From Pseudanabaena sp. UWO311 (GTDB lineage: Bacteria > Cyanobacteriota > Cyanobacteriia > Pseudanabaenales > Pseudanabaenaceae), in contig NZ_SJEE01000027.1 of the NCBI RefSeq assembly GCF_006937785.1, positions 1 to 64,000 on the forward strand: a DNA stretch of 64,000 nucleotides, in the 5' to 3' direction. Below, piece by piece: positions 41,631 to 57,554 of this stretch; position 1 is the stretch's first letter, and each line of letters opens with the position of its first letter. The notes beneath the pieces are model-generated. The model did not search any database and was not told the origin of the DNA. It worked only from the letters and a program-made list of their open reading frames with translations. The position numbers and the translations under genes were made by a program.

Positions 41631-42127
41631 TTACTAACGATTTACCACAACTTTATTGGAATGCAAATACAGATGTGCTCTGTCTTAAAGATGCTGTTAC
41701 CCATGTCTTAAATCATGGCTATTCGCATCATATTCAAAGACTGATGGTTCTGAGCAACTTTAGCAATCTCACAAACACAGATCCGCGTCAGCTAAATCAT
41801 TGGTTTTGGCTTGCCTATATCGATGCTTACGAATGGGTTGAACTTCCTAATGTCATAGGCATGTCTACCTTTGCAGATGGTGGCATACTTGCATCAAAAC
41901 CTTATATCTCAGGTGGTAGTTACATCAATAAAATGAGTAACTGCTGCTCACAATGCAAATATGATGTGAAGCAAAAGACAGGCAGCTGCGCTTGTCCATT
42001 TAATTATTTATATTGGAATTTCGTTGATCAGCATCGTGATAGCTTTGCTGAGAATGGAAGAGTGTCGCTAATGACTAATGTTTATGAAAAGAAAAGTGAA
42101 GACTAAAAGCAGGCTATTCGGGAATCA
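41631..42127 (+). pseudogene. Truncated second copy of the Fe-S photolyase 3' end
   Basis: Bases 41631-42127 repeat 35240-35736. The frame is open from 41675 (GTG) to 42106 and retains the CSQC...CAC cluster motif, but the N-terminal 350 residues are missing and the 3' end stops early because a GAAGAT became GAAGAC-TAA. It is therefore not a functional photolyase. It starts directly after transposase debris. Confidence 0.85.
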
Positions 42128-42316
42128 TCAATTCATTTCACAAAGAATCTAAAACGTAGGTATTATGAATAAGCCTTAATGTTTGTAGTGACGGAAGCGC
42201 AGCAAACCTCAAAATTGCTAGTCTATTTCTCAAAAATTAAGACTATGCTCATACTGAGCATAGTCAGATAAAATCATCCAGTTTCAGGGAGTTTAACTGA
42301 GAGAGAAGAAATGAAG

Positions 42317-42738: not shown

Positions 42739-43881
42739 ATGACTTCCTCTAAGACCTTAGAATTAGATACATCCTCATCCTCTGAATCTCATGTTGAAAA
42801 AGACACATCACTGCCAAGTGATGCAACATTTTTATCTGAAAAGCCACTAGTCTCATTGATTGTTCCAGCTTACAATGAGTCATCTATTATTGAAGCAAAT
42901 CTGGCAATTCTTTGTGAGTATATGCAGTCCCTAGAGGCTAATTACCAATGGGAGATGATTATCATTAACGATGGAAGCAGAGATGACACTCACGCAAAGG
43001 CGTTAGAATTTGCTAAGAGTAGAGACAACATTTTGGTACTACATCATCGCATTAACTTTGGGCTTGGTCAGTCTTTAAAATATGGTTTCAAGAATTGTCA
43101 AGGAGATTACATTGTTGTTGTTGATTTAGACTTGAGTTACTCAGTCGATCATATTGGTGACATGTTAGATCGGATTGTCAAAACTCAAGCTCGAATAGTC
43201 GTAGCTTCACCATATATGCGTGGTGGTTCTATTTCTAATGTGCCTTGGTTACGAAAAACTCTGAGCATCTGGGCTAATCGATTTCTATCTTTTACTGACA
43301 AGCGTAGTCTGGCAACCTTAACTGGGATGGTCAGAGTTTATGATGCTAGATTTTTGAAAAAAATCAATCTTAGATCGAAAGGAATGGACATCAATCCAGA
43401 AATCATTCATAAAGCAAGACTTTTGGGTGCGAGGGTTGAAGAAATTCCCGCTCATCTTTGTTGGTTACCCCAGAAAGCGAATGAGGTCAAAAGAATCTCT
43501 AGTATGAAGATTGGTTGGCAGATAGTTGATGTTTTGCTATCTGGATTTTTATTTAGACCTGTAATATTCTTTCTCATTCCCAGTCTCATATTGTTTTTAC
43601 TTTCAATCTATGCCAACTTTTATGCATTTTTAAGATCTTGGTCTAATTACAAAGATCTAGCATCGTATCAGCAATTTCCAGATTTTACCGAAGCTATTGC
43701 AATGGCATACAATCAATCACCTCACACCTTTTTTATTGGTGGTGTGACACTGATTTTAGCTATTCAAATGTTTAGCTTAGGTACTTTATCTATGCAGAGC
43801 AAAAAATATTTTGAAGAAATATTTTTTCTTGCCTCTTCTATCTATGAAAAAAAGCAAAATGATAGTAGTACTGAGAACTAG
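42739..43881 (+). CDS. GT2 polyprenyl-phosphate glycosyltransferase, membrane-bound
   Basis: A 380-residue family-2 glycosyltransferase. Residues 35-270 form the GT-A domain: SLIVPAYNESSIIEANLAIL, IIINDGSRDDT, the acceptor-binding RINFGLGQSLKYGFKNCQGD and the catalytic VVDLDLS. Two hydrophobic segments follow (about 270-300 and 325-355), the layout of dolichyl/undecaprenyl-phosphate sugar transferases such as ArnC, GtrB and DPM1. It should move a nucleotide-activated sugar onto a lipid carrier at the inner membrane. It is first in the cluster to 57542, all on one strand. Confidence 0.85.
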   Translation: MTSSKTLELDTSSSSESHVEKDTSLPSDATFLSEKPLVSLIVPAYNESSIIEANLAILCEYMQSLEANYQWEMIIINDGSRDDTHAKALEFAKSRDNILVLHHRINFGLGQSLKYGFKNCQGDYIVVVDLDLSYSVDHIGDMLDRIVKTQARIVVASPYMRGGSISNVPWLRKTLSIWANRFLSFTDKRSLATLTGMVRVYDARFLKKINLRSKGMDINPEIIHKARLLGARVEEIPAHLCWLPQKANEVKRISSMKIGWQIVDVLLSGFLFRPVIFFLIPSLILFLLSIYANFYAFLRSWSNYKDLASYQQFPDFTEAIAMAYNQSPHTFFIGGVTLILAIQMFSLGTLSMQSKKYFEEIFFLASSIYEKKQNDSSTEN

Positions 43882-44060
43882 TCTAATATCAAAGACATGG
43901 CTAATTGACATGCCTTTATATTGGTAGCTGTAATTTTTGATAGCTCTGAAAACCTCGTAGTAACTAAGTCTTGCCATTCTTGATATTTTGGCTGATTGCT
44001 GAAATAGGGCAGAATATCTCTGAACTTGGAATTACGTCTTAAGCTATTAAGATCACACAA
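43878..44060 (-). CDS. Possible relic ORF opposite the cluster
   Basis: A TTG-started 60-codon frame on the minus strand with protein-like composition (SLRRNSKFRDILPYFSNQPK; WQDLVTTRF). It fills the gap between the GT2 and aminotransferase genes and resembles the tail of a larger protein. I cannot assign a family; it may be chance. Confidence 0.25.
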   Translation of the reverse strand: MCDLNSLRRNSKFRDILPYFSNQPKYQEWQDLVTTRFSELSKITATNIKACQLAMSLILD

Positions 44061-44161
44061 ATCAAGGGTTTACTTTTCATCTATGTAAGTTTTACTTGTT
44101 TTGTAACATCAACACCTTATTTGTTTTCGAGAAATAACTTTTTTAAGGAGCATCATTTAAA

Positions 44162-45394
44162 ATGACTGAATCTGCATCAACTCTCAACAAGATGATTCAA
44201 TTACCCTCTGACCAAGATGCGTCTGGACGTACTCTCGGCGCAGAAGAAATCAAGCTACTGTCTGAAGCTATTCATAGCGGTACACTCACTAGCACAAAAG
44301 GAAATTTTGTTAAAACGCTTGAAGAAAAGTTTGCCGCTTTAATTGGTGTTAAATACGCTTATGCATGTTCTTCGGGGTCAGGTGCAATTCATACCGCGAT
44401 ATGTGCTGTTGATCCTGAGCCTGGTGATGAAATTATCACCACTTCAATTACTGATATGGGAGCTTTGACTCCTATTCTCTACCAAGGCGCTATTCCTGTA
44501 TTCGCTGATGTCGATCCCAAAACTTGGAATGTCACGGCTGAGTCGATTGAGGCTTGCCTAAGCGATCGCACTAAGGCGATCATTGTCACACATCTATTCG
44601 GCAATCCTTGCAACATGACAGAGATTGTCGAACTAGCAGAATCACGCGGCATTCCTATTATCGAAGACTGCGCTCAGTCATTTCTCGCTGAGCATAATGG
44701 GACAAAAGTTGGGGCGATCGGTTCAATTGGATGCTTTAGTCTGCAACAAGGTAAGCACATTACCACTGGAGAAGGCGGGATTGTCACCACTAATGACGAA
44801 GCTTTTGCACGGCGTATGTTTCTATTCGTAAACAAGGCTTGGGGCTATGGAGATCCCCAACCCGATCATTATTTCCTCGCTCTCAATGGTCGGATGTGTG
44901 AGTTGCAAGGAGCCGTAGCAGTTGCCCAGCTTGCAAAGTTAGAAGGAATTGTTAAGAGTCGTCAAGTTGCTGCTGACAAGTTGACAGCTAAGTTGCAAGG
45001 ACTAGATGGAATTGCAACTCCTCTGATTGATCCCAGAAACACCCATGTTTATTGGAAGTATTGCCTGAGCGTCGATAGCGCAAAAATTGCGGATGGAGCT
45101 GTCGGTTTAGCGAAAAGTTTGAAACCGAAAGGAATTTTCTCAGCACCACGCTATATCCAAAAGCCAGCTTTCATGTGCGAGATTTTCCAAAAACAGCGCA
45201 CATTTGGCAATTCTCGCTTCCCATTTACTTTAGCTAGACCTGAAGCAGTGGATTATGATGCCGCAAAATTTGCTGGGACTTATGCTGGACTAGAAGCTGT
45301 GTTGGTTTTACCTTGGAATGAGCGTTACACCGATGAGCATATCGATTATATTGCTGATGCAATTCACGAATCTGTTAAACAACTGAGCATTTAA
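44162..45394 (+). CDS. DegT/DnrJ/EryC1/StrS-family sugar aminotransferase
   Basis: A 410-residue PLP enzyme that aminates a keto sugar nucleotide (as ArnB, WecE or QdtB do). It shows the family order: substrate loop ALIGVKYAYACSSGSGAIHT, PLP phosphate-binding TSITDMGALTPI, Asp in PIIEDCAQSFLAE, Schiff-base Lys in GKHITTGEGGIVTTND (near residue 198) and ALNGRMCELQGAVAVAQL. Preceded by a good AAGGAGCATC ribosome-binding site. It should act with the downstream oxidoreductase and acyltransferase to make an N-acylated amino sugar. Confidence 0.93.
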   Translation: MTESASTLNKMIQLPSDQDASGRTLGAEEIKLLSEAIHSGTLTSTKGNFVKTLEEKFAALIGVKYAYACSSGSGAIHTAICAVDPEPGDEIITTSITDMGALTPILYQGAIPVFADVDPKTWNVTAESIEACLSDRTKAIIVTHLFGNPCNMTEIVELAESRGIPIIEDCAQSFLAEHNGTKVGAIGSIGCFSLQQGKHITTGEGGIVTTNDEAFARRMFLFVNKAWGYGDPQPDHYFLALNGRMCELQGAVAVAQLAKLEGIVKSRQVAADKLTAKLQGLDGIATPLIDPRNTHVYWKYCLSVDSAKIADGAVGLAKSLKPKGIFSAPRYIQKPAFMCEIFQKQRTFGNSRFPFTLARPEAVDYDAAKFAGTYAGLEAVLVLPWNERYTDEHIDYIADAIHESVKQLSI

Positions 45395-45431
45395 TGTTGT
45401 GTATTAGGGATTAGATATCTCGTTAAATTCA

Positions 45432-45482
45432 AATAATTTTTGAAAAGCTCTATCTAATTTAGAAAGCTTTTCAAAAATTATT
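45432..45482. terminator. Hairpin inside the cluster
   Basis: 18-base perfect arms AATAATTTTTGAAAAGCT / complement with a 15-base loop, in the 132-base gap between aminotransferase and oxidoreductase. It could be an attenuator or an mRNA end stabiliser. Confidence 0.6.
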
Positions 45483-45526
45483 CTTGCTTTACAAACTAAA
45501 TAATTTAAAGTTAAACAGAAATAATC

Positions 45527-46564
45527 ATGTCAACTGCAAAATTGAGATTTGGTCTAATTGGTGCTGGCGCGATCGCGCAATCTTACGTCCAAGCGTTTGA
45601 GAGTAGTGATATTGCCCAACTTGTAGGTATTGCCGATGTGGATCTTCCCAGAGCACAGTCTTTAGCAGAGCGTTTAGGATGTCAGAGTTTCTCCTCCTAC
45701 GAAGAATTGCTAAATGGCTTTGAGATTGAAGCCGCAATCATTTGTACTCCTCCAATTACCCATTTGGAAGTTAGTCGATACCTACTAGAGCGCAAAATTC
45801 ATGTTCTTTGTGAAAAACCACTGAGCGTCAACTCAGCCAGTGCCAAGCTAATGCTTGAAGCTGCAAAACAGGCTGGTGTGATTTTGACAATGGCTTCTAA
45901 GTTCCGCTATGTAGAAGATGTGATTCATGCTAAGCAGATTGTTTCGTCAGGCATTCTAGGCGAAATTGTCCTGTTTGAGAATGCTTTCACAGGTCGCGTT
46001 GATATGAGCAAGCGGTGGAACTCTCAACCACAAATCAGCGGTGGTGGCGTTCTAATTGACAACGGTACGCATTCTGTTGATATTATGCGGTATTTTCTTG
46101 GCACTCTGGCTGAGATTCAAGTTGTTGAGGGCAAACGCATTCAAGGCTTGGAGGTTGAGGACACCGTGCAGATTTTTGTGAAGAGTGCAAGTGGTGTACG
46201 TGGAAATATTGACCTCTCTTGGAGTATCAATAAAGAGCTAGATAGCTATATCCGTATATATGGCTCTCAAGGCACAATTTCTGTCGGTTGGAAGGAATCT
46301 AAATATCGCCAAGCTTCCAGTCCTGATTGGATTGTATTTGGTAAAGGCTATAACAAAGTCCAAGCATTTCGCAGCCAGATTGAGAATTTCACCAAGGCAA
46401 TTAGAGGTGAAGAATCACTGATTATTACTGCTGAAGATGGACTAGCCTCCGTAGAAGCTATTGAATCAGCCTACGCTGCCATGATGCAAACTAGTTGGAC
46501 TCCGATCTCTCGCAAAATGTACGGTTTGCAAAGCAACGAAGCTGCTTCTGTAGTTGTGGGGTAA
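45527..46564 (+). CDS. Gfo/Idh/MocA-family sugar dehydrogenase
   Basis: A 345-residue NAD(P)-dependent oxidoreductase. The N-terminal Rossmann domain starts LRFGLIGAGAIAQSYVQAFE; HVLCEKPLSVNSASAKLMLE holds the conserved Lys (EKP motif, near 91), and the C-terminal domain has the DNGTHSVDIMRYFLG segment with the proton-relay His. In sugar clusters such enzymes oxidise a UDP- or dTDP-sugar so that the DegT partner can aminate it. It is followed by the acyltransferase with a five-base gap. Confidence 0.9.
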   Translation: MSTAKLRFGLIGAGAIAQSYVQAFESSDIAQLVGIADVDLPRAQSLAERLGCQSFSSYEELLNGFEIEAAIICTPPITHLEVSRYLLERKIHVLCEKPLSVNSASAKLMLEAAKQAGVILTMASKFRYVEDVIHAKQIVSSGILGEIVLFENAFTGRVDMSKRWNSQPQISGGGVLIDNGTHSVDIMRYFLGTLAEIQVVEGKRIQGLEVEDTVQIFVKSASGVRGNIDLSWSINKELDSYIRIYGSQGTISVGWKESKYRQASSPDWIVFGKGYNKVQAFRSQIENFTKAIRGEESLIITAEDGLASVEAIESAYAAMMQTSWTPISRKMYGLQSNEAASVVVG

Positions 46565-46568
46565 ATAT

Positions 46569-47195
46569 ATGACGGTTCGTATCCATCCTTCGGCGATCGT
46601 CGAGGATAACGTTAGCATAGGTGAAGGCAGTTCCATTTGGGACAGCGTTCACATTCGCCACTCAACCCAAATTGGCGAAGAATGTATCGTCGGTGAAAAG
46701 ACCTACATTGCCTATGGTGTCAAAATTGGCGATCGCGTCAAGATTAATGCCTTTGTATATATTTGCAATGCTGTCACCATCGAAGATGGCGTGATGATTA
46801 GTGCAGGTACTATTTTCACAAATGATCGCTTCCCCAGAGCAACCACCAGCGATCTAAAGAAACTCCGACCTTCCGATCCTGATGAGCATACGCTCCCAAC
46901 TCTTGTCCAAGCAGGTGCAACAATTGGCGCAGGCTGTACAATTGGCAATGATCTCACGATCGGACGCTTTGCTATGATTGGCATGGGTTCTTTGGTCACT
47001 AAGTCTGTACCTGATTTCCATTTAGTGATCGGGCATCCCGCTAAGTCAGTCGGTTGTGTCTGTCGTTGCGGTCAGCTACTAAGGCGTTTTCCTGTTGAGG
47101 GAAATGTAGATGAGTCAGAAATAGCCTGCTCGGCATGTGGTTTGAAGTATGAGATCAAAGAATGTAAGGTTATAGAACTGGCTCATCCTTGCTAA
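46569..47195 (+). CDS. Hexapeptide-repeat sugar N-acyltransferase with zinc-ribbon tail
   Basis: A 208-residue left-handed beta-helix acyltransferase, like WlbB and related sugar-amine N-acetyltransferases. It begins MTVRIHPSAIVEDNVSIGEG and has hexapeptide repeats to about residue 150 (GAGCTIGNDLTIGRFAMIGM), ending in the typical LVIGHPAKSVG. The last ~55 residues add an unusual zinc-ribbon-like tail: CVCRCGQ, then CSACG and a final Cys-containing segment. The frame is open five codons upstream, but ATG 46569 fits the family. It should acylate the amino group set by the DegT enzyme. Confidence 0.88.
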   Translation: MTVRIHPSAIVEDNVSIGEGSSIWDSVHIRHSTQIGEECIVGEKTYIAYGVKIGDRVKINAFVYICNAVTIEDGVMISAGTIFTNDRFPRATTSDLKKLRPSDPDEHTLPTLVQAGATIGAGCTIGNDLTIGRFAMIGMGSLVTKSVPDFHLVIGHPAKSVGCVCRCGQLLRRFPVEGNVDESEIACSACGLKYEIKECKVIELAHPC

Positions 47196-47289
47196 GTTAA
47201 GCTGAATTTAAATATTTGGGTGATATGGTAGCTCTCATCCGAATATCCTGTTATATCTTGAATTAAATAAAATAGCAAATTGACGACCT

Positions 47290-48615
47290 ATGGCATCCAA
47301 ATCCAAGCATTGGGGCATTGTAGGTGGCGGCATTTTAGGAATGACCCTCGCTCTACGTTTAGCCCAACAAGGTAAGCAAGTTACTTTAATTGAAAGTTCC
47401 GATCGCTTAGGTGGTTTGGCAGATGCTTGGCAACTAGGCGACATCATCTGGGATCGCCATTATCACGTTACCTTGCTGTCAGATAAACATTTGCGATCGC
47501 TGCTTACTGAACTAGGTCTAGAGCGAGATATGCAATGGGTTGAGACTAAAACAGGTTTCTATAACGACGGTAAACTTTATTCGATCTCTAATGCGATCGA
47601 GTTCTTACGATTTTTCCCTCTCAATCTCATTGATAAACTGCGCTTTGCTTTCACAATCATCTATGGTTCCAAAATTAAAGACTGGAAAAAGCTGGAAAAG
47701 ATATCTGTTAGCGATTGGCTTACAAAATGGTCGGGCAAACATACCTTTGAGAAAATTTGGTTGCCACTACTGCGATCGAAATTAGGAGAAAACTACAAGA
47801 AAGCATCAGCTTCATTTATTTGGGCAATTATTGCCAGACTATATGCTGCTAGGCGCACTGGCTTAAAAAAAGAACTATTTGGCTACCTTCCTGGTGGATA
47901 TAGCCGTATGCTTGTTCGCTTTGCTGAAGTCCTAGCCGAGTCTAATGTTTCGATTAAATTAAACCATAAAATCAAGAATGTCGAATCGTTAAAAACCTTT
48001 GATGGAAATATTATCAATATTGCGTTTGAGGATGGTTCCTATGAAGAATTTGATCGGGTTGTTCTGACAGTACCCGCCCCAGTTGCGGTAAAGGTATGCT
48101 CAGGGCTTACTGATGACGAAATTCGGCGGCTGAAAGATATTGAGTATCAGGGTATTATCTGCGCTTCGGTACTTCTTAAAAAGCCAATCTCTAAATTTTA
48201 TGTCACGAATATTACAGATACTTGGGTTCCCTTTACTGGTGTAATTGAGATGACGGCTCTAGTCGATCGCGCACAGTTTGGTGGTAATGCATTAGTATAT
48301 TTACCAAAATACGTTGTTCCTGACGATCCTGCGTTTGAATTAAGCGATCGCGAACTTGAGGAAAAGTTTATTCAAGCCCTAGTCCATATGTATCCTCGGT
48401 TTGAGCGTAGTGATGTGTTATGTTTTCAAGTTTCTAGAGTAAGACATGTGCTAGCGATCGCCACCTTAAATTATTCAGAACGCTTACCATCTATTAGAAC
48501 CTCTATATCAGGTGTTTATATAGTTAATTCCGCTCACATTCTTAATGGAACATTAAATGTCAATGAAACGATTCAGCTTGCAGAACAATCACTGACAAAA
48601 ATAGATATAAATTAG
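47290..48615 (+). CDS. FAD-dependent oxidoreductase (amine oxidase/protoporphyrinogen-oxidase-like)
   Basis: A 441-residue flavoprotein. The N-terminus has the FAD-binding Rossmann pattern KHWGIVGGGILGMTLALRLA, with SSDRLGGLADAW and WDRHYHVTLLSDKHL after it, as in UDP-galactopyranose-mutase and carotenoid-desaturase-like enzymes. The C-terminal part carries VYIVNSAHILNGTLNVNETI, the second FAD-contact. Proteins of this class are frequent in polysaccharide clusters, but the substrate is unclear. Its AT content matches the neighbours. Confidence 0.8.
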   Translation: MASKSKHWGIVGGGILGMTLALRLAQQGKQVTLIESSDRLGGLADAWQLGDIIWDRHYHVTLLSDKHLRSLLTELGLERDMQWVETKTGFYNDGKLYSISNAIEFLRFFPLNLIDKLRFAFTIIYGSKIKDWKKLEKISVSDWLTKWSGKHTFEKIWLPLLRSKLGENYKKASASFIWAIIARLYAARRTGLKKELFGYLPGGYSRMLVRFAEVLAESNVSIKLNHKIKNVESLKTFDGNIINIAFEDGSYEEFDRVVLTVPAPVAVKVCSGLTDDEIRRLKDIEYQGIICASVLLKKPISKFYVTNITDTWVPFTGVIEMTALVDRAQFGGNALVYLPKYVVPDDPAFELSDRELEEKFIQALVHMYPRFERSDVLCFQVSRVRHVLAIATLNYSERLPSIRTSISGVYIVNSAHILNGTLNVNETIQLAEQSLTKIDIN

Positions 48616-48719
48616 ATACGTCAACTCAAAAACATTTATGTTTTTAAATATAAAATTCCCGAAAACATTTATGTTAGGAAATAATTGGTGTTTTTATGCT
48701 TGGAAAGAGATAAATCAAA

Positions 48720-50264
48720 ATGAAAAGGATACTGATTTTGATTGTGGCAATTTTGATGACCTCTTTATGGTCATCATCAGGTACTTTTGATAGTTCAGAT
48801 ACAATTAATCGTTATAGAGTTGCACGTCAACTAGTTACAGAAGGGCAAATAATTGTTAGTTCGTATGGCGATGCAGAAAGCTTCCCCATGTTCAAAGATA
48901 AAGATACTCCATATTCCAGTCCTTATATCGCAGTTTGGGGACCTGGACAATCATTGTTTTTTCTGCCATTTGTTGCTGTCTCGCATCTAGCTGTTAAAGA
49001 TATTCCAACAGATCCCAGACAAAAAGAAAGATTCTTAATATTTCTAGTTTCAGTTTCAGTTTTTTTTGTGAGTCTTGCTCTTAATTTCTGGCTGTGTATG
49101 AAATTAGCTTTGATCTTAAATATGCAGCCGTTAATAGCTTATATGTTAGCGGTAGTTGCAAATTTTGGGACTATTTATTGGTCGATGCTTAAGGAGGGTC
49201 AAGAGGAAGTACAGTTATCCATTTTTGTGATCGCTGCGCTCTGTTCTTTTTTAAACTGGAAAAAATTTGGTGATAATAAGTACATATGTTTTTCTGCTAT
49301 TTCTGTAGCTAGTGCTTTACTGTTTAGATTAACTGCTTTACCATTCCTTTTAGGGATTTTAGGACTATACGGAGCTGAAATTTTTTATGGGTCCAAATCT
49401 CAGCTATCTCAAGCGAAAAGTTTGCGTTCAGTTTTTCTTGCCTTTGGGGTATCTATATTTTGCGTTCTTATCACGATTGGTTCGTATAACATATTTAAGA
49501 CTGGCAATATTCTAAGATCTGGGAATCCCTTGTCAGAGTTTAGTGGTGATTGGCTGATTGGAATTTTTGAACCGATTCTTGGCTTGAGTAGGGGAGTAGT
49601 ATGGACTAATCTCTGGATTCTTCCCTGTTTAGCGATTACCATCTATGCTTGGAAATACCTAACACGTAATTTAAAACAATCATTGTTGTTCACTCTGTTC
49701 CTATTTACTTCATCAATCTTGATTTATTGTAAATATAACGATTGGGCTGGTGGTTCATCATACGGCTCTCGTTTCCAAGTACACCTTTTACCACTAATTG
49801 CTGTAACTCTTGGAGCGGCGACAGTATTATTTTTTAGAGAACATTTTCCAACGATGCTGAGAGTAACAAAATATAGGTTAGCAACTCTAATTGCTTCAGT
49901 CCTATTATTACTACAAATCCCCGCTATTTCACTGCATATGAACTTGGAAATATTTCAATCTTATAGGTTAGCTAATGGAGTTTCTAAAACGCCAAGAATC
50001 GAAAATGTTAACCATGTCCAGATGCGCTACGCAAATTTTTTCTCAAAACTAATTAATGACAAAGTAGTTAATATATCTGACATCGATTTGTCTCACTTAG
50101 CAGGCAATGATTGGGAACGTGCAACTAGATGGAATTATTTGCCGTGGCTATCTGAAGGACGACTAAGCCTAACTGCTGTGTTATGGCTGCGTGGATTATG
50201 GGTCATTATAGTTATCGCAAGTATTTGGAGTTGGCTATGGGTGTTTAATAAATTACCAATTTAA
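48720..50264 (+). CDS. Polytopic membrane protein, GT-C glycosyltransferase-like
   Basis: A 514-residue integral membrane protein with about eleven hydrophobic spans. The first periplasmic loop has FDSSDTINRYRVARQLV and a later SSPYIAVWGPGQSLFFLPFV; acidic residues at this place are the catalytic site of GT-C enzymes of the ArnT/PMT type, which take sugars from a polyprenyl-phosphate carrier. A large final periplasmic segment precedes one more span near the C-terminus. This would be the transferase that uses the lipid-linked sugar made by the GT2. Function is inferred from topology. Confidence 0.65.
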   Translation: MKRILILIVAILMTSLWSSSGTFDSSDTINRYRVARQLVTEGQIIVSSYGDAESFPMFKDKDTPYSSPYIAVWGPGQSLFFLPFVAVSHLAVKDIPTDPRQKERFLIFLVSVSVFFVSLALNFWLCMKLALILNMQPLIAYMLAVVANFGTIYWSMLKEGQEEVQLSIFVIAALCSFLNWKKFGDNKYICFSAISVASALLFRLTALPFLLGILGLYGAEIFYGSKSQLSQAKSLRSVFLAFGVSIFCVLITIGSYNIFKTGNILRSGNPLSEFSGDWLIGIFEPILGLSRGVVWTNLWILPCLAITIYAWKYLTRNLKQSLLFTLFLFTSSILIYCKYNDWAGGSSYGSRFQVHLLPLIAVTLGAATVLFFREHFPTMLRVTKYRLATLIASVLLLLQIPAISLHMNLEIFQSYRLANGVSKTPRIENVNHVQMRYANFFSKLINDKVVNISDIDLSHLAGNDWERATRWNYLPWLSEGRLSLTAVLWLRGLWVIIVIASIWSWLWVFNKLPI

Positions 50265-50360
50265 TCTAGTTTATAGTTTTGCTTTTCTAATTTCATCTTT
50301 CATGTGTTCACATAATTTGCACGATAATATAAACAATAAATTTACGCTATCTATAAATCT

Positions 50361-51383
50361 ATGAAGTCTCAGAATCCGTTGAATAAAAAAAATAATCAAC
50401 CTGTTGCCAGTTTATCCCTTGATCTTGATAATCAGTGGTCTTACATGAAAACCCATGGAGATGCTGGCTGGGAGTCTTTTCCTTCATATTTAGATATTGT
50501 AATTCCGAGAGTATTGGAATTTTTGGCAGATCGAAACATAAAAATTACTTTTTTTATTGTTGGGCAAGATGCTGCACTAGAAAAAAATCATGCTGCTCTT
50601 AAATCGATTACCGATGCAGGGCATGAAATTGGTAATCATTCCTTTAAGCATGAACCTTGGCTGCATCTTTATTCAGAAGATGAAGTGGATCAAGAACTTG
50701 CGATCGCAGAAGATTATATTGAAAAAGCAACAGGTAGTCGTCCGATCGGGTTTCGTGGACCTGGATTTAGTCTTTCTTCTACGGTGTTGCGAGTGTTAGC
50801 TCGGCGTGGTTATGAATATGATGCATCGACATTTCCGACATTTTTAGGACCTCTTGCGCGTGCTTACTACTTTATGACTAGTAAACTTAGTAAAGAGGAA
50901 ATGGAAAAGCGTAAGGGACTATTTGGAAAATTTCGAGAAGGATTTCGTCCACTTAAGCCTTATCAATGGCGATTGATGGGTAATTTAATCGAGATTCCCG
51001 TGACGACAATGCCTATTTTCAAGATTCCAATTCATGTTAGCTACTTACTTTACCTTGGAGTCTTTTCGCAGACTTTGGCTTTGCTCTATTTTCGATTTGC
51101 GATCGCCCTCTGTCGTTTGATGCGCGTTCAGCCATCGCTTTTACTGCATCCATTAGATTTTATGGGTGGTGAGGATGTCCCTGAGCTAGCTTTTTTCCCT
51201 GCGATGAATCAACCTAGTTATAAGAAGGTAGCTATGGTTGGCAAGGTTTTACAAATCCTTGCAAAGCATTATGCGATCGTGCCTATGTCTCATCATGCTG
51301 AGGCTATTAAACAACGCCAAGCAAAGTTAGCCTTAGTTACACCACATTTTTATAACACTAATACTCCTATTAAGGAGATTTGA
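50361..51383 (+). CDS. NodB-type polysaccharide deacetylase
   Basis: A 340-residue carbohydrate esterase 4 / ArnD-like hydrolase. Motifs: VASLSLDLDNQWSYM with the first metal/catalytic Asp, FIVGQDAALEK, NHSFKHEPWLH (the HxxxH-type metal ligands), then FRGPGFSLSS. In the aminoarabinose pathway ArnD, of this family, deformylates a lipid-linked sugar, which suggests deacylation of the lipid-linked amino sugar here. Cytoplasmic or peripheral. The next gene starts one base after its stop. Confidence 0.88.
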   Translation: MKSQNPLNKKNNQPVASLSLDLDNQWSYMKTHGDAGWESFPSYLDIVIPRVLEFLADRNIKITFFIVGQDAALEKNHAALKSITDAGHEIGNHSFKHEPWLHLYSEDEVDQELAIAEDYIEKATGSRPIGFRGPGFSLSSTVLRVLARRGYEYDASTFPTFLGPLARAYYFMTSKLSKEEMEKRKGLFGKFREGFRPLKPYQWRLMGNLIEIPVTTMPIFKIPIHVSYLLYLGVFSQTLALLYFRFAIALCRLMRVQPSLLLHPLDFMGGEDVPELAFFPAMNQPSYKKVAMVGKVLQILAKHYAIVPMSHHAEAIKQRQAKLALVTPHFYNTNTPIKEI

Positions 51384-51384
51384 T

Positions 51385-52281
51385 ATGCTGAATTTGGATA
51401 GCAACAATGCTTCTGCGAAACCTATAAATTGCCCCATTTGTAGAACAACTGGTACATATTTATTCTCAAAGTATGACTGCTCAATTCTTTACTGCCAAAA
51501 ATGTAGTCATCAATTTGCTGACATTATCCCTAATAATCACCATACTCAAACTGTTTATGGTGATCATTACTTTAATAGTGGTGGAGATGGCTATCCCGAT
51601 TATTTAGGTGAAGCTAAATTGATCCTTGATCATGGAAAAAGATATGCTCAACTTCTCAAGCGCTATATGGACACTGGCACGATATTAGATGTTGGCGCAG
51701 CAGCAGGTTTTATATTGCAAGGATTTACTCAAAGTGGTTGGCAAGGCAAAGGTATTGAACCAAATGCCGAGATGGTTAATCATGATTGCAAATCGCTAGG
51801 TTTGTCCGTCGAAGTTGGTTCCTTAGAAACTATTAGCACCAGCGATCGCTACGATTTGATTAGTATGATCCAAGTTATGCCACACTTTTTTGACCTGCGC
51901 CAAGCATTGAGTAATGCCGCAAACATAACTAAACCTAATGGTTACTGGCTCATAGAAACTTGGAATCGGGACAGTCTAACGGCTAAGATTTGTGGACAGC
52001 ATTGGCATGAATACAGTCCACCGAGTGTCTTACATTGGTTTTCTCCTAATGATTTAGAACAATTAGCTACTCAATTTGGCTTTTACAAAGTTATATGTGG
52101 TAGACCGTCTAAATGGATCAATGGCGCACATATCAAATCTCTACTACGCTACAAACTTGAGCGATCGCGACTTGGTAGACTAGTTATCAATATTTTGAGC
52201 ATTATTCCTGACAATCTTGCCATTCCATATCCTGCTGAGGATCTCTTTTGGATTTTATTCCAGAAAGCAGAAGCAGCTTAA
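51385..52281 (+). CDS. SAM-dependent methyltransferase with N-terminal zinc ribbon
   Basis: A 298-residue class I methyltransferase. Residues 12-45 hold a zinc-ribbon pattern CPICRTTGTYLFS ... YCQKCSHQF; the SAM domain starts GTILDVGAAAGFILQGFTQ and has ISMIQVMPHFFDLRQ. C-methyltransferases of this build act on deoxysugars (TylC3-like) or complete hypothetical sugar steps. It is tightly coupled to the deacetylase gene. The methylated substrate is unknown. Confidence 0.85.
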   Translation: MLNLDSNNASAKPINCPICRTTGTYLFSKYDCSILYCQKCSHQFADIIPNNHHTQTVYGDHYFNSGGDGYPDYLGEAKLILDHGKRYAQLLKRYMDTGTILDVGAAAGFILQGFTQSGWQGKGIEPNAEMVNHDCKSLGLSVEVGSLETISTSDRYDLISMIQVMPHFFDLRQALSNAANITKPNGYWLIETWNRDSLTAKICGQHWHEYSPPSVLHWFSPNDLEQLATQFGFYKVICGRPSKWINGAHIKSLLRYKLERSRLGRLVINILSIIPDNLAIPYPAEDLFWILFQKAEAA

Positions 52282-52366
52282 CAATAAAATTACGATAAGT
52301 TATGCAAGGCTTAACCTACCGTGATTTACGATACCTTTCATCTTTAGCCCATTAAACCCAGCCAGT

Positions 52367-52711
52367 ATGTTTGATAGAAATTTACTTTTACTTTTAGCGA
52401 TATCTCTAGTAACTACTGGGGGGCATATTTTATTCAAGAAAGGTGCTGTCTTAATCAATGGAGAGAATTATCTCACTTGGATAAATCCCGCATTGATTAT
52501 GGGTTTGTTCTTTTATGCGATCGGCACTTTGCTATGGGTATTTGCTTTAAGGTTTATTCCCCTTTCTAAGGCTTATCCATTCACCTTTTTGACTTATATT
52601 TTGGTGACGCTTTTCTCCGCTTTATTCCTTGGCGATCGAATTACCAATTGGTATATTGTAGGTATGGGACTAATTTTTTCTGGCTTAGTCTTGACATCTC
52701 TAGAACTATAG
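52367..52711 (+). CDS. SMR/EmrE-like transporter (ArnE/F-like size)
   Basis: A 114-residue protein with four hydrophobic helices, the size and shape of small multidrug resistance proteins: LLLLLAISLVTTGGHILFKK at the first helix and WVFALRFIPLSKAYPFTF at the third. In Arn clusters the ArnE/ArnF pair of this family flips undecaprenyl-phosphate-aminoarabinose. Here a single gene is present, so it could work as a homodimer flipping the cluster's lipid-linked sugar. The glutamate typical of drug exporters is not in helix 1. Confidence 0.8.
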   Translation: MFDRNLLLLLAISLVTTGGHILFKKGAVLINGENYLTWINPALIMGLFFYAIGTLLWVFALRFIPLSKAYPFTFLTYILVTLFSALFLGDRITNWYIVGMGLIFSGLVLTSLEL

Positions 52712-52910
52712 CTATATTTTCGTAATCATCAACGAATTTTTGAGTTTGGTTATTTACTGTCACAGGAGGGCAAGAGTTTCTTATGCTGTTGAATTAACTA
52801 CTGTCCCACATAAGCTCATAGTGTCTTGTTTTATGTCAATACGAAGAAAAAAATCTACTTTGCTGTTCACTTCATCTCTGAAATGCATTCTAGGAAATGA
52901 TAACTATATG

Positions 52911-53184
52911 GAGCAGATCGCAGATGTTTTGGAAAGATACTTAATTTAGAGCGAGAGGGTATCCATGATAATTTTTTTGAGTTAGGTGGGCATTCTCTAT
53001 TAGCAACTCAAATAATTGCAAGACAGTGGAAAGTATTACAGTTGAAATATCGCTGCGTACTTTCTTTGAAACCCCTACTATAGGAGATTTAGGAGAGAGG
53101 ATTGTGACATTAAACTGGGTGCAACAAAGCTCACAAGTTGCCCAAGATAATCTGTCAGATCTTTACGAGGAGGAAGAGCTATGA
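52911..53184 (+). pseudogene. Decayed C-terminal carrier domain of a lost upstream NRPS
   Basis: Three frames together spell a peptidyl-carrier domain and tail: [11 protein letters not shown], then a shift, [20 protein letters not shown] with TQIIAR, another shift, [20 protein letters not shown] and a C-terminus ...DLYEEEEL ending TGA at 53182-53184. Its stop overlaps the start of the next NRPS gene (ATGA), as in intact NRPS operons. The body of this gene is missing. Bases 52712-52910 hold no other recognisable gene. Confidence 0.85.
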
Positions 53185-56100
53185 AAACACTGGACGCATT
53201 ATTGTTTGAATTGAGTCAAAAAGATATACATCTTTGGTTAGAAGGCGATCGCTTACGCTATCGGGCTGCTAAAGACGCAATTACGCCTGAACTGTTAACT
53301 GAGATTAAAAATCGCAAAGCCGAAATCGTTAAGTTTCTACGTCAAGCTACGGGAACTAACAATTCCCAACTCCCTCCAATTGTCAAGATTGATCGCAGCG
53401 GAGCTTTGCCTCTATCTTTTGGACAGCAGCGTCTTTGGTATTTACACCAGTTTGAACCTGAAAGCTCTTCTAACAACGTCCCTGTTGTGGTTAGGTTTAA
53501 TGGAGTTCTCAATATTCCAATACTGGAGAAAAGTCTGCAAGCAGTGGCTCGTCGCCATGAGGTGCTGAGAACTCGATTTCCATCAGTTGACGATCAGCCT
53601 ACGCAAGTAATTGAACCTGATGTCGATCTCACCTTGCCAGTACTCGATTTGCGAAATCTTCAACCTGAACAGGGTGATGCAGAAGCACTAAGACTAGCAA
53701 CTGAAGAAGCTCGCTGTCCATTTAATCTAGCGAAAGGACCGATATTGAGGGTGCTGCTCATCCAGTTGAGTGATGATGAATATCTTCTGGTTTGGAATAT
53801 GCACTGTATTATTTGTGATGGTGCTTCTTCCGATGTGTTCTATCAGGATCTCACTACAATTTATACTGCTTTTATTGATGGCAAGCCTTCTCCTTTAAAA
53901 GAGCTATCAATTCAATATGTTGATTTTGCTCATTGGCAACGCCAGTGGCTTAAAGGCGAAGTTTTAGAATCACAGATTAATTATTGGAAGCAGAAATTAG
54001 AAGGATCTTTATCGGTCATTCCGTTGCCAACCGATCATACTCGTCCCCCGATAGTTCAGACCTATCGAGGCGATCGCAGAGCGAGAATGTTGCCAAAATC
54101 TTTAAATGAGAGCCTCAGTAACTTGAGTCAGAAGCTGGGTGGAACCCTATTCATGACTCTAATTGCAGCTTTTGAAACTCTGCTACATCGGTATTCACAA
54201 AAAAACGATATTCTGATCAGCTTTGCTTGTGCAGGTCGAGGAGAGGTGGAAACTGAGGGCGTAGTCGGTTTTTTCTCCAACACTTTAATGCAACGCATTA
54301 ATTTTGATGGCAATCCCACCTTTAGGGAACTCTTTGATCGAGTTCGTGAAGCTTCTCTAGAAGCTAATACGTATCAGGATTTACCTTTTGAGAAACTAGT
54401 AGAAGAGTTACCTCCTGAACTGAGCAATAGCCGATCGCCTTTATTTCAAGTGAAATTTGCGCTCAATCCACCTTGGTCAAATGGACGAGGTATGGCATCA
54501 GTCAAGCTTCCCGATTTGACTATTACATCTCTATTTGGTTACATCTATCACGGCAAGACAAAGTACGACTTGATTTTAGTCATGCGCGAGCAGGACGAAG
54601 GACTCGGCATGGTGTTTGATTATAATGCTGATTTATTTGAATCTAGTACAATTGCGCGAATGTTAGTTCATCTTGAGAATATTCTTGAGGGGATAGCTGC
54701 TAATCCTGACCAGAGAATCTCTGATCTTCCACTCTTATCAATTCCAGAACGAGAAAAAATCCTGTATAAGTGGAATGAAAATCAAATCCCAATCCCAGAT
54801 GCTTGTATGCATCAATTGTTTGAATCTCAGGTGGAACAATCTCCAGATGCGATCGCAATCATCGGCGAAGATGCGCAGTTAACTTATCAAGAGCTGAATA
54901 ATCGCGCTAATCAAATGGCTCACTATCTCCAAGCTAAGGGAGTTGGGACAGAGACCCTAGTCGCTATCTGTATAGAGAAATCGACACAATTGCTAGTTAG
55001 TCTACTTGGTATACTTAAATCTGGTGGAACCTATATTCCTCTAGATCCTAGCTATCCGCATGAACGTCGCATAGACAAGTTAAAGAATGCACAAGTTGCC
55101 CTGATTTTGACTCATTCAAGCATGGCTGATTCTTTTTCGGAGTGCAGCGCTAAAGTGGTGTCTCTCGACCTAGAATTGGATGCGATCACCCAGCATCGAT
55201 ACGATGCTCCATTAACCTTTTTAACCGCTGAGAATTTAGCATATGTGATTTACACGTCAGGCTCGACAGGACAACCTAAAGGTGTGATGATTTCCCATCG
55301 CAGCATGGTCAACCACAGCATGGCTATTTGTAAAATATTTGAGCTGTCTAGACAAGATCGAGTTTTACATTTCTCTAATATAAGCTTCGATGCGGCAGTT
55401 GAAGAAATATTCCCCACTTGGTTGAGTGGTGGAACGCTTGTTTTGCCTACCAAAAAACTTTACACATCAATTACTTATTTTCTCGAAGAGATCGCCCAGC
55501 AATCCATTACAATCATTAATTTGCCAACGGCTTTTTGGCATGAGATGGTTCATGGTATTTCTATCCTAAATAAGCCTCTTCCTACGGAACTTCGACTGGT
55601 AATTGTAGGAGGAGAAAAGGTCTCGAAATCAACTTATCAAAAATGGCGATCGCTGGTTGGTGATTTTCCACGTTGGCTGAATACCTATGGACCAACTGAG
55701 ACAACCGTATCTGCAACAGTCTACGAGCCATCTGGGAGCCTCCATCCTGATGCTGAAGTTCCCATCGGTCGTGCGATCGCTAATCTTCAGACCTATATTC
55801 TAGATCACAATTTACAGCCATCTCCTATTGGGGCTACTGGTGAATTGTATATTGGTGGAGTTGGTCTCAGTCGAGGTTATTTAAATCGTCCAGATATTAC
55901 AGCAAAACGATTTATTGCTAACCCTTTCTCAAAGAATTCAAAAGATCGGCTTTACAAGACTGGTGATGTCGCTCGTTATTTGCCTGATGGCAATATAGAA
56001 TTTATTGGCCGATCCGACTTCCAAATTAAAATCCGAGGCTTTCGGGTTGAGCCAATCGAAATTGAAACCCGATTAGAACAATATCCTGCTATTAAACAAG

Positions 56101-57542
56101 CTATTGTCCTATGTCATGAAGCTCCGAATGGAGAAAAATTTCTTGTTGCTTACCTAAGTGCAGAAAAGGAACAGGCGATTGATATTGAATCCCTAGGGAA
56201 GTTTTTACGTCAAAAACTGCCATCTTATATGCTGCCTTCTCGTTTTATCGTCTTAGATACATTACCGTTAACCCCAAATGGAAAGGTAGATCGTCGTGCT
56301 TTACTCGAACTAGATGCAGCACAAGAGCAAAACGATGAAGCGATCACTCCTCGTGATGAACTAGAGCAACAACTAGCAAATATATGGCAAAAGCTTTTTG
56401 GTGTTAACGATATAAGTGTTACAGCTAACTTTTTTGAACTAGGTGGGAATTCTCTTCTAACTGTACGTTTAGTTACAGAAATAGAACGGGTTTTTAACTA
56501 CCATTTCCCGCTGTCGTCATTTTTTGAGACAGGAACGATCGCAGGGATTGCAAAATGGATGCGTGAAAAGCCATCTGAGACAATCTCTCTTGATGAAATT
56601 CCTTCTGGTCTTGATTTAGAAGACTATCGAGCTTTTCTAGCTTTGTGTGCGGGTCGTATAGGCAAGCATATCGGAAAACGAGGCTTAATCGTGGAAGTTC
56701 CACCAGCTGAGATGAAATCATCTAAACCTTTTATTTGGATTGGCTACATTGATTTCAGCAAGAATTTAGGACTACATCAACCTGTATATACCATACCTGG
56801 CGGTAGTTGGACACCTTTACGCTCTACCGAAAACTATATTGAGGCGATCGCATCCGTCATAGTTGATGAATTATTGTCAATCCCGCAAGATGAACCTTAT
56901 TTGATTGGGGGTAATTGCTACGAAGGGATAGTTGCGATGGAAGTAGCTCACCAACTACAGAAAAAAGGGAAAGAAGTTGCTTTCTTAGCAGTAGTGGATA
57001 AGCCAGGCCCATCTCAAATTTACGATAAATTGCGTCAAGTCGATCTCAAATTTTGTCAGCTGAAGTTTCATCTTTTACAACTCTTACCATTATCCCTAAT
57101 TAACAAAGCTAAATATATACTTGAGAAGCTTTTTTCGCCTAAAGCTAAGCAAGAAATTCGTAAAATTGAGAGCGAGCGAGACTTTAATCAATTTGCGGAT
57201 GAGGAATTTCCATCAAAGTCGAAGAAACCACTAAATGAATATGATCGAATATTACCACAAGCTTGGGATTCAATTGAAGAAGTATTGAAAAGCCATTGCT
57301 CTAAAGGTTATTCGGGTAGAGTTATACTAACTACGCCTACGAGGTCTGGACTGAGATCGGGTATGACCGAAATAAACTGGACTGATTTTTCATGGCTATT
57401 TCCCTATTATGGATGGGGAAATAGCCTAACAGGAAGGGTCGAACTCTATAAGATTGATTGTGCACATGCTGATGTTGGAATGAAGAAGAATGCTGAGCAG
57501 ATCGGTAGATTAATTTGGCAAGCGTCTGAGGAGTTTCGCTAA
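53181..57542 (+). CDS. Single-module NRPS: docking-C-A-PCP-TE
   Basis: A 1453-residue synthetase. Residues 1-55: TubC-like docking domain (LSQKDIHLWLEGDRLRYRAA). About 65-510: condensation domain with LPLSFGQQRLWYLHQFEP but MHCIICDG where HHxxxDG is expected (H208, C209, D213). About 530-1045: adenylation domain with YTSGSTGQPKGV, NTYGPTETT, YKTGDVARY, NGKVDRRALL; a tentative specificity code is D-A-E-N-I-G-T-V-S-K, substrate not recognised. About 1060-1130: carrier with FFELGGNSLL (Ser1091). About 1180-1453: thioesterase whose nucleophile is Cys (GGNCYEG, C1246), with likely Asp1273 and His1429. It closes the sugar cluster. Confidence 0.92.
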   Translation: MKTLDALLFELSQKDIHLWLEGDRLRYRAAKDAITPELLTEIKNRKAEIVKFLRQATGTNNSQLPPIVKIDRSGALPLSFGQQRLWYLHQFEPESSSNNVPVVVRFNGVLNIPILEKSLQAVARRHEVLRTRFPSVDDQPTQVIEPDVDLTLPVLDLRNLQPEQGDAEALRLATEEARCPFNLAKGPILRVLLIQLSDDEYLLVWNMHCIICDGASSDVFYQDLTTIYTAFIDGKPSPLKELSIQYVDFAHWQRQWLKGEVLESQINYWKQKLEGSLSVIPLPTDHTRPPIVQTYRGDRRARMLPKSLNESLSNLSQKLGGTLFMTLIAAFETLLHRYSQKNDILISFACAGRGEVETEGVVGFFSNTLMQRINFDGNPTFRELFDRVREASLEANTYQDLPFEKLVEELPPELSNSRSPLFQVKFALNPPWSNGRGMASVKLPDLTITSLFGYIYHGKTKYDLILVMREQDEGLGMVFDYNADLFESSTIARMLVHLENILEGIAANPDQRISDLPLLSIPEREKILYKWNENQIPIPDACMHQLFESQVEQSPDAIAIIGEDAQLTYQELNNRANQMAHYLQAKGVGTETLVAICIEKSTQLLVSLLGILKSGGTYIPLDPSYPHERRIDKLKNAQVALILTHSSMADSFSECSAKVVSLDLELDAITQHRYDAPLTFLTAENLAYVIYTSGSTGQPKGVMISHRSMVNHSMAICKIFELSRQDRVLHFSNISFDAAVEEIFPTWLSGGTLVLPTKKLYTSITYFLEEIAQQSITIINLPTAFWHEMVHGISILNKPLPTELRLVIVGGEKVSKSTYQKWRSLVGDFPRWLNTYGPTETTVSATVYEPSGSLHPDAEVPIGRAIANLQTYILDHNLQPSPIGATGELYIGGVGLSRGYLNRPDITAKRFIANPFSKNSKDRLYKTGDVARYLPDGNIEFIGRSDFQIKIRGFRVEPIEIETRLEQYPAIKQAIVLCHEAPNGEKFLVAYLSAEKEQAIDIESLGKFLRQKLPSYMLPSRFIVLDTLPLTPNGKVDRRALLELDAAQEQNDEAITPRDELEQQLANIWQKLFGVNDISVTANFFELGGNSLLTVRLVTEIERVFNYHFPLSSFFETGTIAGIAKWMREKPSETISLDEIPSGLDLEDYRAFLALCAGRIGKHIGKRGLIVEVPPAEMKSSKPFIWIGYIDFSKNLGLHQPVYTIPGGSWTPLRSTENYIEAIASVIVDELLSIPQDEPYLIGGNCYEGIVAMEVAHQLQKKGKEVAFLAVVDKPGPSQIYDKLRQVDLKFCQLKFHLLQLLPLSLINKAKYILEKLFSPKAKQEIRKIESERDFNQFADEEFPSKSKKPLNEYDRILPQAWDSIEEVLKSHCSKGYSGRVILTTPTRSGLRSGMTEINWTDFSWLFPYYGWGNSLTGRVELYKIDCAHADVGMKKNAEQIGRLIWQASEEFR

Positions 57543-57554
57543 AACAAAATCACT

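Follow-up and report, generated by a model that had tools for sequence, protein, structure and literature searches.

A probable lipid-linked amino-sugar cassette of Pseudanabaena and the orphaned nonribosomal peptide synthetase module beside it, very likely two independent neighbours

The closest described systems to the locus treated here are these. In the Arn pathway, a sugar is transaminated, loaded by a GT2 glycosyltransferase onto undecaprenyl phosphate, deacetylated on the lipid by a NodB-type enzyme, flipped by an SMR flippase, and finally transferred by a GT-C enzyme. In parallel, in the Gtr serotype systems, where GtrA is the flippase, the acceptor glycosyltransferase varies while the other genes are conserved. 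The Wlb/Wbp and GnnA/GnnB pathways of 3-amino sugar nucleotides work with a Gfo/Idh dehydrogenase and a DegT transaminase, the hexapeptide acyltransferase being a feature of Wlb/Wbp, and in AlmE/F/G and Dlt an adenylation enzyme and a carrier deliver an amino acid to an envelope glycan. The stretch under study, hereafter the window, comprises 64,000 nucleotides of Pseudanabaena sp. UWO311 (contig NZ_SJEE01000027.1), and was compared with 25 congeners (26 Pseudanabaena genomes with its own). At 42739-57542 it carries ten intact frames, all on the + strand: nine sugar genes (42739-52711), together called the cassette, and one nonribosomal peptide synthetase (NRPS) gene (53181-57542). A sequence-only reading had suggested that they might form one pathway. 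We consider it very likely that they are two independent neighbours instead, an envelope-glycan modification cassette standing beside the remnant of a lost polyketide synthase (PKS)/NRPS line. The features are as follows, with C, A, T, and TE meaning condensation, adenylation, carrier, and thioesterase domains.

42739..43881, + strand: GT2 glycosyltransferase, DPM/ArnC-like, predicted polyprenyl-phosphate sugar synthase (Pfam PF00535, E 5e-31)
44162..45394, + strand: DegT/DnrJ/EryC1/StrS aminotransferase, a sugar transaminase (PF01041, E 2e-84)
45527..46564, + strand: Gfo/Idh/MocA sugar dehydrogenase, predicted to 3-oxidise a uridine diphosphate (UDP)-sugar (PF01408)
46569..47195, + strand: hexapeptide N-acyltransferase (LbH), WlbB-like (PF00132; PDB 3mqg, E 7e-36)
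47290..48615, + strand: flavin adenine dinucleotide (FAD) oxidoreductase of the PRK07233 family, with phytoene desaturase/protoporphyrinogen oxidase fold, flavin amine oxidase in Pfam (NF005560, 459 bits, cut-off 252)
48720..50264, + strand: membrane protein at the GT-C position, differing from species to species (weak NCBIfam LA_3751 match)
50361..51383, + strand: NodB-family polysaccharide deacetylase (PDA), XrtA-type best (PF01522; TIGR03006, 71 of 276 bits)
51385..52281, + strand: S-adenosylmethionine methyltransferase, optional member (PF13489; in two of six Pseudanabaena cassettes)
52367..52711, + strand: small EamA/SMR membrane protein, ArnE/F-like, predicted flippase (PF00892 over cut-off)
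52914..53184, + strand: pseudogene stub, frameshifted 3' (carrier-protein) end of the NRPS gene that stands before the terminal one in the parent line (DNA and tblastn homology)
53181..57542, + strand: NRPS terminal module TubC-C-A-T-TE, intact frame, orphaned (Pfam Condensation, AMP-binding, PP-binding, Thioesterase, and TubC_N over cut-off)

The sequence-only reading had the ten genes, their common strand, and their coordinates right, and the thioesterase that it gave to the NRPS is indeed part of the TubC-C-A-T-TE order found by Pfam. Its family labels stood as to domain content, with Pfam cut-offs passed for GT2, DegT, Gfo/Idh, the hexapeptide transferase, the flavin amine oxidase family, the NodB-type deacetylase, the methyltransferase, and EamA/SMR, but Pfam gives no match for the GT-C gene, and the Arn labels apply no further than the family level. 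It went wrong in calling cluster and NRPS fused: they are separate genes with a scar in between, the spacing being 1-280 bp between the sugar genes and 469 bp, containing pseudogene sequence, between the SMR and NRPS genes.

The parentage of the NRPS is seen in the congeners. A whole-protein search of 58 genomes, the window genome included, found orthologues with 71-82% identity across 1447 residues or more in four of them, G019, G005, G022, and G016, the last having a TE part of another type that is only 36% identical, and in all four the orthologue is the final gene of a three-synthetase line. This parent line, whose domains were scanned in G019 only, is made of proteins of ~2550 aa (partial C, A-T-KS-AT-T-aminotransferase, KS and AT being ketosynthase and acyltransferase), ~1090 aa (C-A-T), and ~1450 aa (TubC-C-A-T-TE), with the final two synthetase genes overlapping; a remoter copy (45% identity) with the same layout of the line occurs in G040, from another family. 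The sugar cassette, searched by its FAD and DegT markers, was not found in any of the four congeners. PMC11356792 describes a PKS/NRPS cluster of P. galeata CCNP1313 (OA858_07105-07090) and places NRPS regions of that chromosome at 842,738-848,680 and 1,530,477-1,548,363, both in agreement with the NRPS coordinates of G022, which we infer to be that strain. The third open reading frame of the P. galeata line is the orthologue of the window NRPS (71% identical in G022, same domain order), so that the window NRPS is a leftover of an already described line; what differs is that the window genome is without the two upstream synthetase genes, save a stub of ~270 bp. It holds one condensation domain in total, that of the window NRPS, and nothing in it matches the 2547-aa partner at the level of an orthologue, the top match (41% over the A-T part) being the window NRPS itself and the next one 39% over the KS part.

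Homology of the window DNA to the parent lines starts at 52902-52914, ~270 bp ahead of the NRPS start, where it corresponds to the 3' end of the 1090-aa gene; the homology shared with the P. frigida ULC066bin1 (G013) cassette stops at 52757. The stub lacks a single base at two places and three more near its 5' end, has in-frame stops, and is recovered by tblastn in two separate frames, at 72% and 83% identity. On the right side, homology to the G019 line stops at 57552, ten bases past the NRPS stop, and from these limits to the left and right it follows that no more than a terminal piece of 4.6 kb remains of the assembly line. In the Era region beyond, the Era gene alone matches in five of six relatives' stretches (matches >150 bases), and in the sixth, that of P. 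sp. FACHB-1998 (G003), window genes from 24.9-28.0 kb match too, ~10 kb away. A deletion or replacement would have taken out everything upstream bar the decayed stub, leaving next to the cassette the cut-off terminal part of a different pathway, of which the stub is still to be seen, and the link between NRPS and cassette that the sequence-only reading had drawn is not supported. The orphan NRPS and its decaying stub are a natural record of the loss of an assembly line module by module. The genome being in 61 contigs, one could suspect the join of cassette and NRPS to be an assembly error, yet this is extremely improbable, since the join sits within a 71-kb contig and its sequence is decayed relative to four relatives, as a misjoin would not make it.

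The distribution of the cassette points the same way. Six of the 26 Pseudanabaena genomes have it, and in P. sp. FACHB-1998 it is complete but for the methyltransferase, the very next gene being that of an SppA-type peptidase, in a genome with no condensation domain and with an A-T-TE gene on another contig; in P. biceps PCC 7429 (G014), no NRPS lies between SMR and SppA. Outside the genus, all or part of the cassette was found at ten loci (Leptolyngbyaceae twice, Drouetiella, Tolypothrix, Oculatellaceae, two planctomycetes, Ferruginibacter, a member of the Eremiobacterota, and G044), with GT2, DegT, Gfo/Idh, LbH, FAD, and PDA all together in L037, L038, L040, L041, and G044 and the remaining loci partial or at contig ends. 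None of the ten has an NRPS match within the stretches compared, several of which end at contig ends, by a search that does recover the congeners' NRPS genes; neither was an SMR match found there, within the same limits. The recurrence of the gene set that the sequence-only reading suggested looking for is therefore real for the cassette, full or partial, in cyanobacteria and in distant phyla, but does not extend to the NRPS outside the genus, and by that reading's own account an NRPS absent from its relatives' sugar clusters is only a neighbour. A joint sugar-NRPS pathway was rejected given the parent line in cassette-free congeners, the stub, the genome of P. sp. FACHB-1998 without a condensation domain, and the loci outside the genus. 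In this way, a testable pathway is set apart from one that joins sugar and NRPS, which is plausible but lacks support. A survey of 386 genomes of the phylum, the window genome among them, gave six with a match to the FAD protein at E 1e-100, namely the window genome itself and five others with 39-41% identity; it speaks of rarity and not of absence, because only four candidates per genome were scored and known carriers are not among its matches. None of the titles listed by searches of the open-licence PMC library describes this gene set. The Ferruginibacter locus also encodes a UbiA protein that weakly matches HAD (L043:13424-14857), which is what one might look for in polyprenyl-phosphate pentose synthesis.

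Taken by itself, the cassette is a variant of the lipid-linked sugar modification systems already known. Its best reading is an Arn/Gtr-type route with 3-amino sugar nucleotide synthesis, which probably puts an unusual amino sugar on a surface glycan; we infer all of the enzyme chemistry and the order of the steps from the gene families. The Gfo/Idh enzyme would oxidise a UDP-sugar at C3 and the DegT enzyme would transaminate this position (UDP-GlcNAc3N type), after which the WlbB-like enzyme would acylate the 3-amino sugar nucleotide, the DPM-like GT2 would load the sugar onto polyprenyl phosphate, the NodB-type deacetylase would take an acetyl group off, the SMR protein would flip the lipid-linked sugar, and the GT-C protein would pass it to the surface glycan. 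The FAD enzyme and the methyltransferase would make further modifications; that the former acts on the isoprenoid carrier is only a thought. A 3-amino sugar is supported by the nearest solved relative and top PDB match of the acyltransferase, 3mqg, titled 'lipopolysaccharides biosynthesis acetyltransferase', which we take to be a WlbB, and the earlier WlbB-like label held (its start is more likely ATG 46569 than TTG 46554). The GT2 protein has hydrophobic segments at its C-terminus, as judged by eye, and its top PDB match is dolichol monophosphate mannose synthase, with sll0501 and ArnC also among the matches; DegT matches a sugar aminotransferase (top) as well as perosamine synthase, ArnB, and WbpE; and the top NCBIfam matches of the SMR protein are ArnF and ArnE, both sub-threshold. 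The NF005560 family of the FAD protein carries only the name 'hypothetical protein', and the predicted model (pLDDT 83) aligns by Foldseek to phytoene desaturase with TM 0.8 at 17% identity. A sugar that is made, loaded, deacetylated, flipped, and transferred, as in the sequence-only reading, agrees with these families and with their conservation; its NRPS-supplied aminoacyl part found no support.

Compared with the Arn pathway, the likeness lies in the proposed order of operations, whereas the cassette has Gfo/Idh and a WlbB-type acyltransferase in place of ArnA and has the FAD enzyme and methyltransferase in addition; no ArnA decarboxylase/formyltransferase is found by Pfam or NCBIfam among the ten genes, the rest of the genome not having been searched for it. 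With the Wlb/Wbp pathways it shares adjacent genes for the Gfo/Idh dehydrogenase, the DegT transaminase, and the LbH acyltransferase, and it differs from them in that the ten genes include no UDP-sugar 6-dehydrogenase and the sequence matches are at the family level. The AlmE/F/G and Dlt systems resemble the logic that the sequence-only reading proposed, with the difference that the NRPS here is a condensing TE module, and a transferase of the AlmG or DltB/D kind is likewise not found among the ten genes by Pfam and NCBIfam, the search having been confined to these. With the three-component (Gtr-type) side-chain systems, among them the one of PMC11127046, the cassette shares a lipid-linked donor synthase and a predicted flippase, together with a putative GT-C acceptor enzyme, but it brings its own amino-sugar synthesis and deacetylation, and its flippase is an SMR protein versus the MATE protein of PMC11127046.

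Within this three-component set, GT2 and SMR are clear, and the GT-C match is weak in the window, with GT87 over cut-off for the protein in the same slot of P. frigida. The variability of the acceptor glycosyltransferase that marks such systems is found in the GT-C slot: in the six Pseudanabaena cassettes, 13 of 15 pairs have no BLASTP match at E 1e-3, the other two being 94.8% and 22.6% identical, while FAD, PDA, and SMR are each matched in 15/15 pairs at 79.5-98.2% identity (these four were compared in all pairs, and the remaining cassette genes to the window only). Differing between species as it does, the GT-C protein probably sets the acceptor, and the swapping is the pattern to be expected of an acceptor-specific enzyme. 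The slot protein of G008, another carrier, is 26-41% identical to cassette-locus proteins of Drouetiella, Tolypothrix, a planctomycete, and Ferruginibacter, the planctomycete protein scoring above the PMT_2 cut-off; for that of the window, 291 other genomes of the phylum gave no match at E 1e-12, and its predicted model (pLDDT 36) is not usable. A cassette that is patchy across distant phyla, with its own amino-sugar synthesis and a swapped GT-C slot, offers a tool to find the acceptor-setting enzyme in cyanobacteria.

Several points weigh against this reading of the cassette as an Arn/Gtr-type variant and of the NRPS as its independent neighbour. No cassette enzyme reaches an equivalog cut-off for Arn or Wlb (ArnB 158/631, ArnC 47/529, ArnE 38/92, and ArnF 39/99 bits); Gfo/Idh ties between inositol 2-dehydrogenase (131 of 355 bits) and archaeal UDP-GlcNAc 3-dehydrogenase (131 of 450), both sub-threshold in NCBIfam; and the sole support for the window GT-C gene is the LA_3751 family of putative glycosyltransferases, at 22 bits versus a cut-off of 200. 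In P. biceps and P. sp. 'Roaring Creek' (G004), the DegT gene is on a different contig from FAD, and in the latter unrelated genes follow FAD where LbH would be, so its cassette is split. On the NRPS side, the frame is intact while the adjoining stub is decayed, the whole-gene ratio of nonsynonymous to synonymous change (dN/dS) against the orthologues is 0.10, 0.12, 0.16, and 0.36 (the last for G016 with its differing TE), and the intact frame and these ratios mean that the NRPS may have kept or gained a function. Finally, NRPSs of other kinds, 36-45% identical to that of the window, lie just past the SMR gene in P. frigida (A-T-C-A-T-TE plus A and T-TE proteins, after one dioxygenase-like gene), in 'Roaring Creek' (a GT2/half-C-A-T-TE protein), and probably in G008, where an A-T-TE protein is placed past SMR on the grounds that its contig and the cassette contig have an end repeat in common, and that it lies with a dioxygenase-like gene as in P. 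frigida. The 'Roaring Creek' protein (L089:6934-11463) has a GT2 domain in one frame with the C-terminal half of a condensation domain and A-T-TE, and may be a further NRPS truncated at the same point; hydroxyphenylpyruvate dioxygenase-like genes lie beside the cassette-adjoining NRPS genes at L087:18229-19335 in P. frigida and probably at L098:3348-4487 in G008. As for an association within the genus, condensation domains occur in 5/6 carriers versus 8/20 non-carriers, which is not significant (Fisher p 0.16); a first Fisher p of 0.017 was dropped, as the loose protein-search counts behind it included a protein without a condensation domain.

Is the orphan NRPS itself decaying? Its frame is intact over 1453 codons. 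When changes are polarised between the window and G016 branches, taking G019 and G005 as outgroups, those that fall on the window branch number 16 in 189 positions of the stub versus 14 in 1080 of the NRPS C domain (codon positions 1+2, p 7e-7), and no frameshift is seen in the NRPS where ~32 are expected at the stub rate (p ~1e-14), or 3.9 at a lower-bound rate (p 0.02). Scaled by position 3, the difference gives p 0.16 for stub versus C domain and p 0.024 for stub versus C + A domains, and this comparison of rates is approximate because identity to G016 is uneven along the NRPS. At the amino-acid level, the C domain has 15 changes on the window branch versus 2 on the G016 branch (p 0.013; third-position counts 16 versus 15), which suggests relaxed constraint. 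Decay already under way is thus not supported as the whole story, with the frame intact and the gene changing more slowly than the stub; the NRPS may be recently orphaned or weakly constrained, and may have kept a function.

One such function would be solo work, the orphan module loading an amino acid that its Cys-type thioesterase hands to the cassette sugar or to another acceptor, as in AlmE/F/G or Dlt. The frame unbroken over 4359 bp, the slow change of the C domain next to the stub, the position of the NRPS on the same strand as the next intact gene past SMR, one phosphopantetheinyl transferase family match in the genome, and the other NRPS genes at roughly the same place in 'Roaring Creek', P. 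frigida, and probably G008 all speak for it. We nevertheless hold it quite unlikely, given that in the parent line the module is a terminal condensing one, that its C domain looks relaxed, that the frameshift deficit at the conservative rate reaches p 0.02 only, that no AlmG- or DltB/D-kind transferase is among the ten genes, and that cassettes outside the genus have no NRPS match. The narrower version, in which the recruited terminal module would use this thioesterase to place the amino acid on the sugar's free amino group, is very unlikely; if true, a condensing NRPS module would here be decorating an envelope glycan with aminoacyl groups. That the NRPS alone yields a small free metabolite unconnected to the cassette is also unlikely: the C-A-T-TE module is complete in its intact frame, but its C domain expects an upstream donor, which the stub shows to be lost, and no other condensation domain was found in the genome.

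For the A-domain prediction that the sequence-only reading suggested, the pocket reads D-A-E-N-I-G-T-V-S by alignment to G022, and the substrate is possibly a basic residue or Thr/Val. In PMC11356792, the G022-equivalent pocket D-V-E-N-I-G-G-V-T is assigned Thr/Val, and an Arg module of the same P. galeata strain has D-A-E-D-I-G-T-V-V. The second His of the C-domain motif is replaced in all six aligned terminal modules (HC in the window, G019, G005, G016, and G040, and HN in G022), the preceding module keeping HH in the three examined, and the TE nucleophile motif has Cys (GGWCYNG or GGNCYEG) in the window, L047, L048, L049, L050, L052, L087, and L089. Among the six aligned terminal modules, five have the Cys TE and G040 has Ser. 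The HC motif and Cys TE were considered as signs of decay and rejected, both being shared with terminal modules of relatives.

The locus is a hotspot where the cassette and NRPS clusters are both gained and lost. The cassette lies directly downstream of a photolyase-related gene in P. frigida, P. sp. FACHB-1998, and G008 (the homologue in P. frigida, where the domain was scanned, is PF04244 DPRP), and in G022 the PKS/NRPS line lies there instead. On the other side of the cassette or NRPS genes, an SppA-glycosyltransferase-DAO block is found in G019, G005, P. frigida, 'Roaring Creek', P. sp. FACHB-1998, and P. biceps; in G022 it adjoins the second NRPS, and in the window genome it is on another contig. 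The left flank of the island in the window is a further feature:

41631..42138, + strand: duplicated 3' fragment of the photolyase-related gene (97.4% identity over 508 bp to the full copy)

Situated just upstream of the cassette, this duplicate is a sign of recent rearrangement. Promoter-like sites number 34 versus a shuffle mean of 44, and terminator-like ones 13 versus 11.4, and nothing is claimed from them. The full copy of the photolyase-related (DPRP) gene is at 34195-35772, and between it and the fragment lies, on the opposite strand, the gene of a 1693-aa kinase/GGDEF protein.

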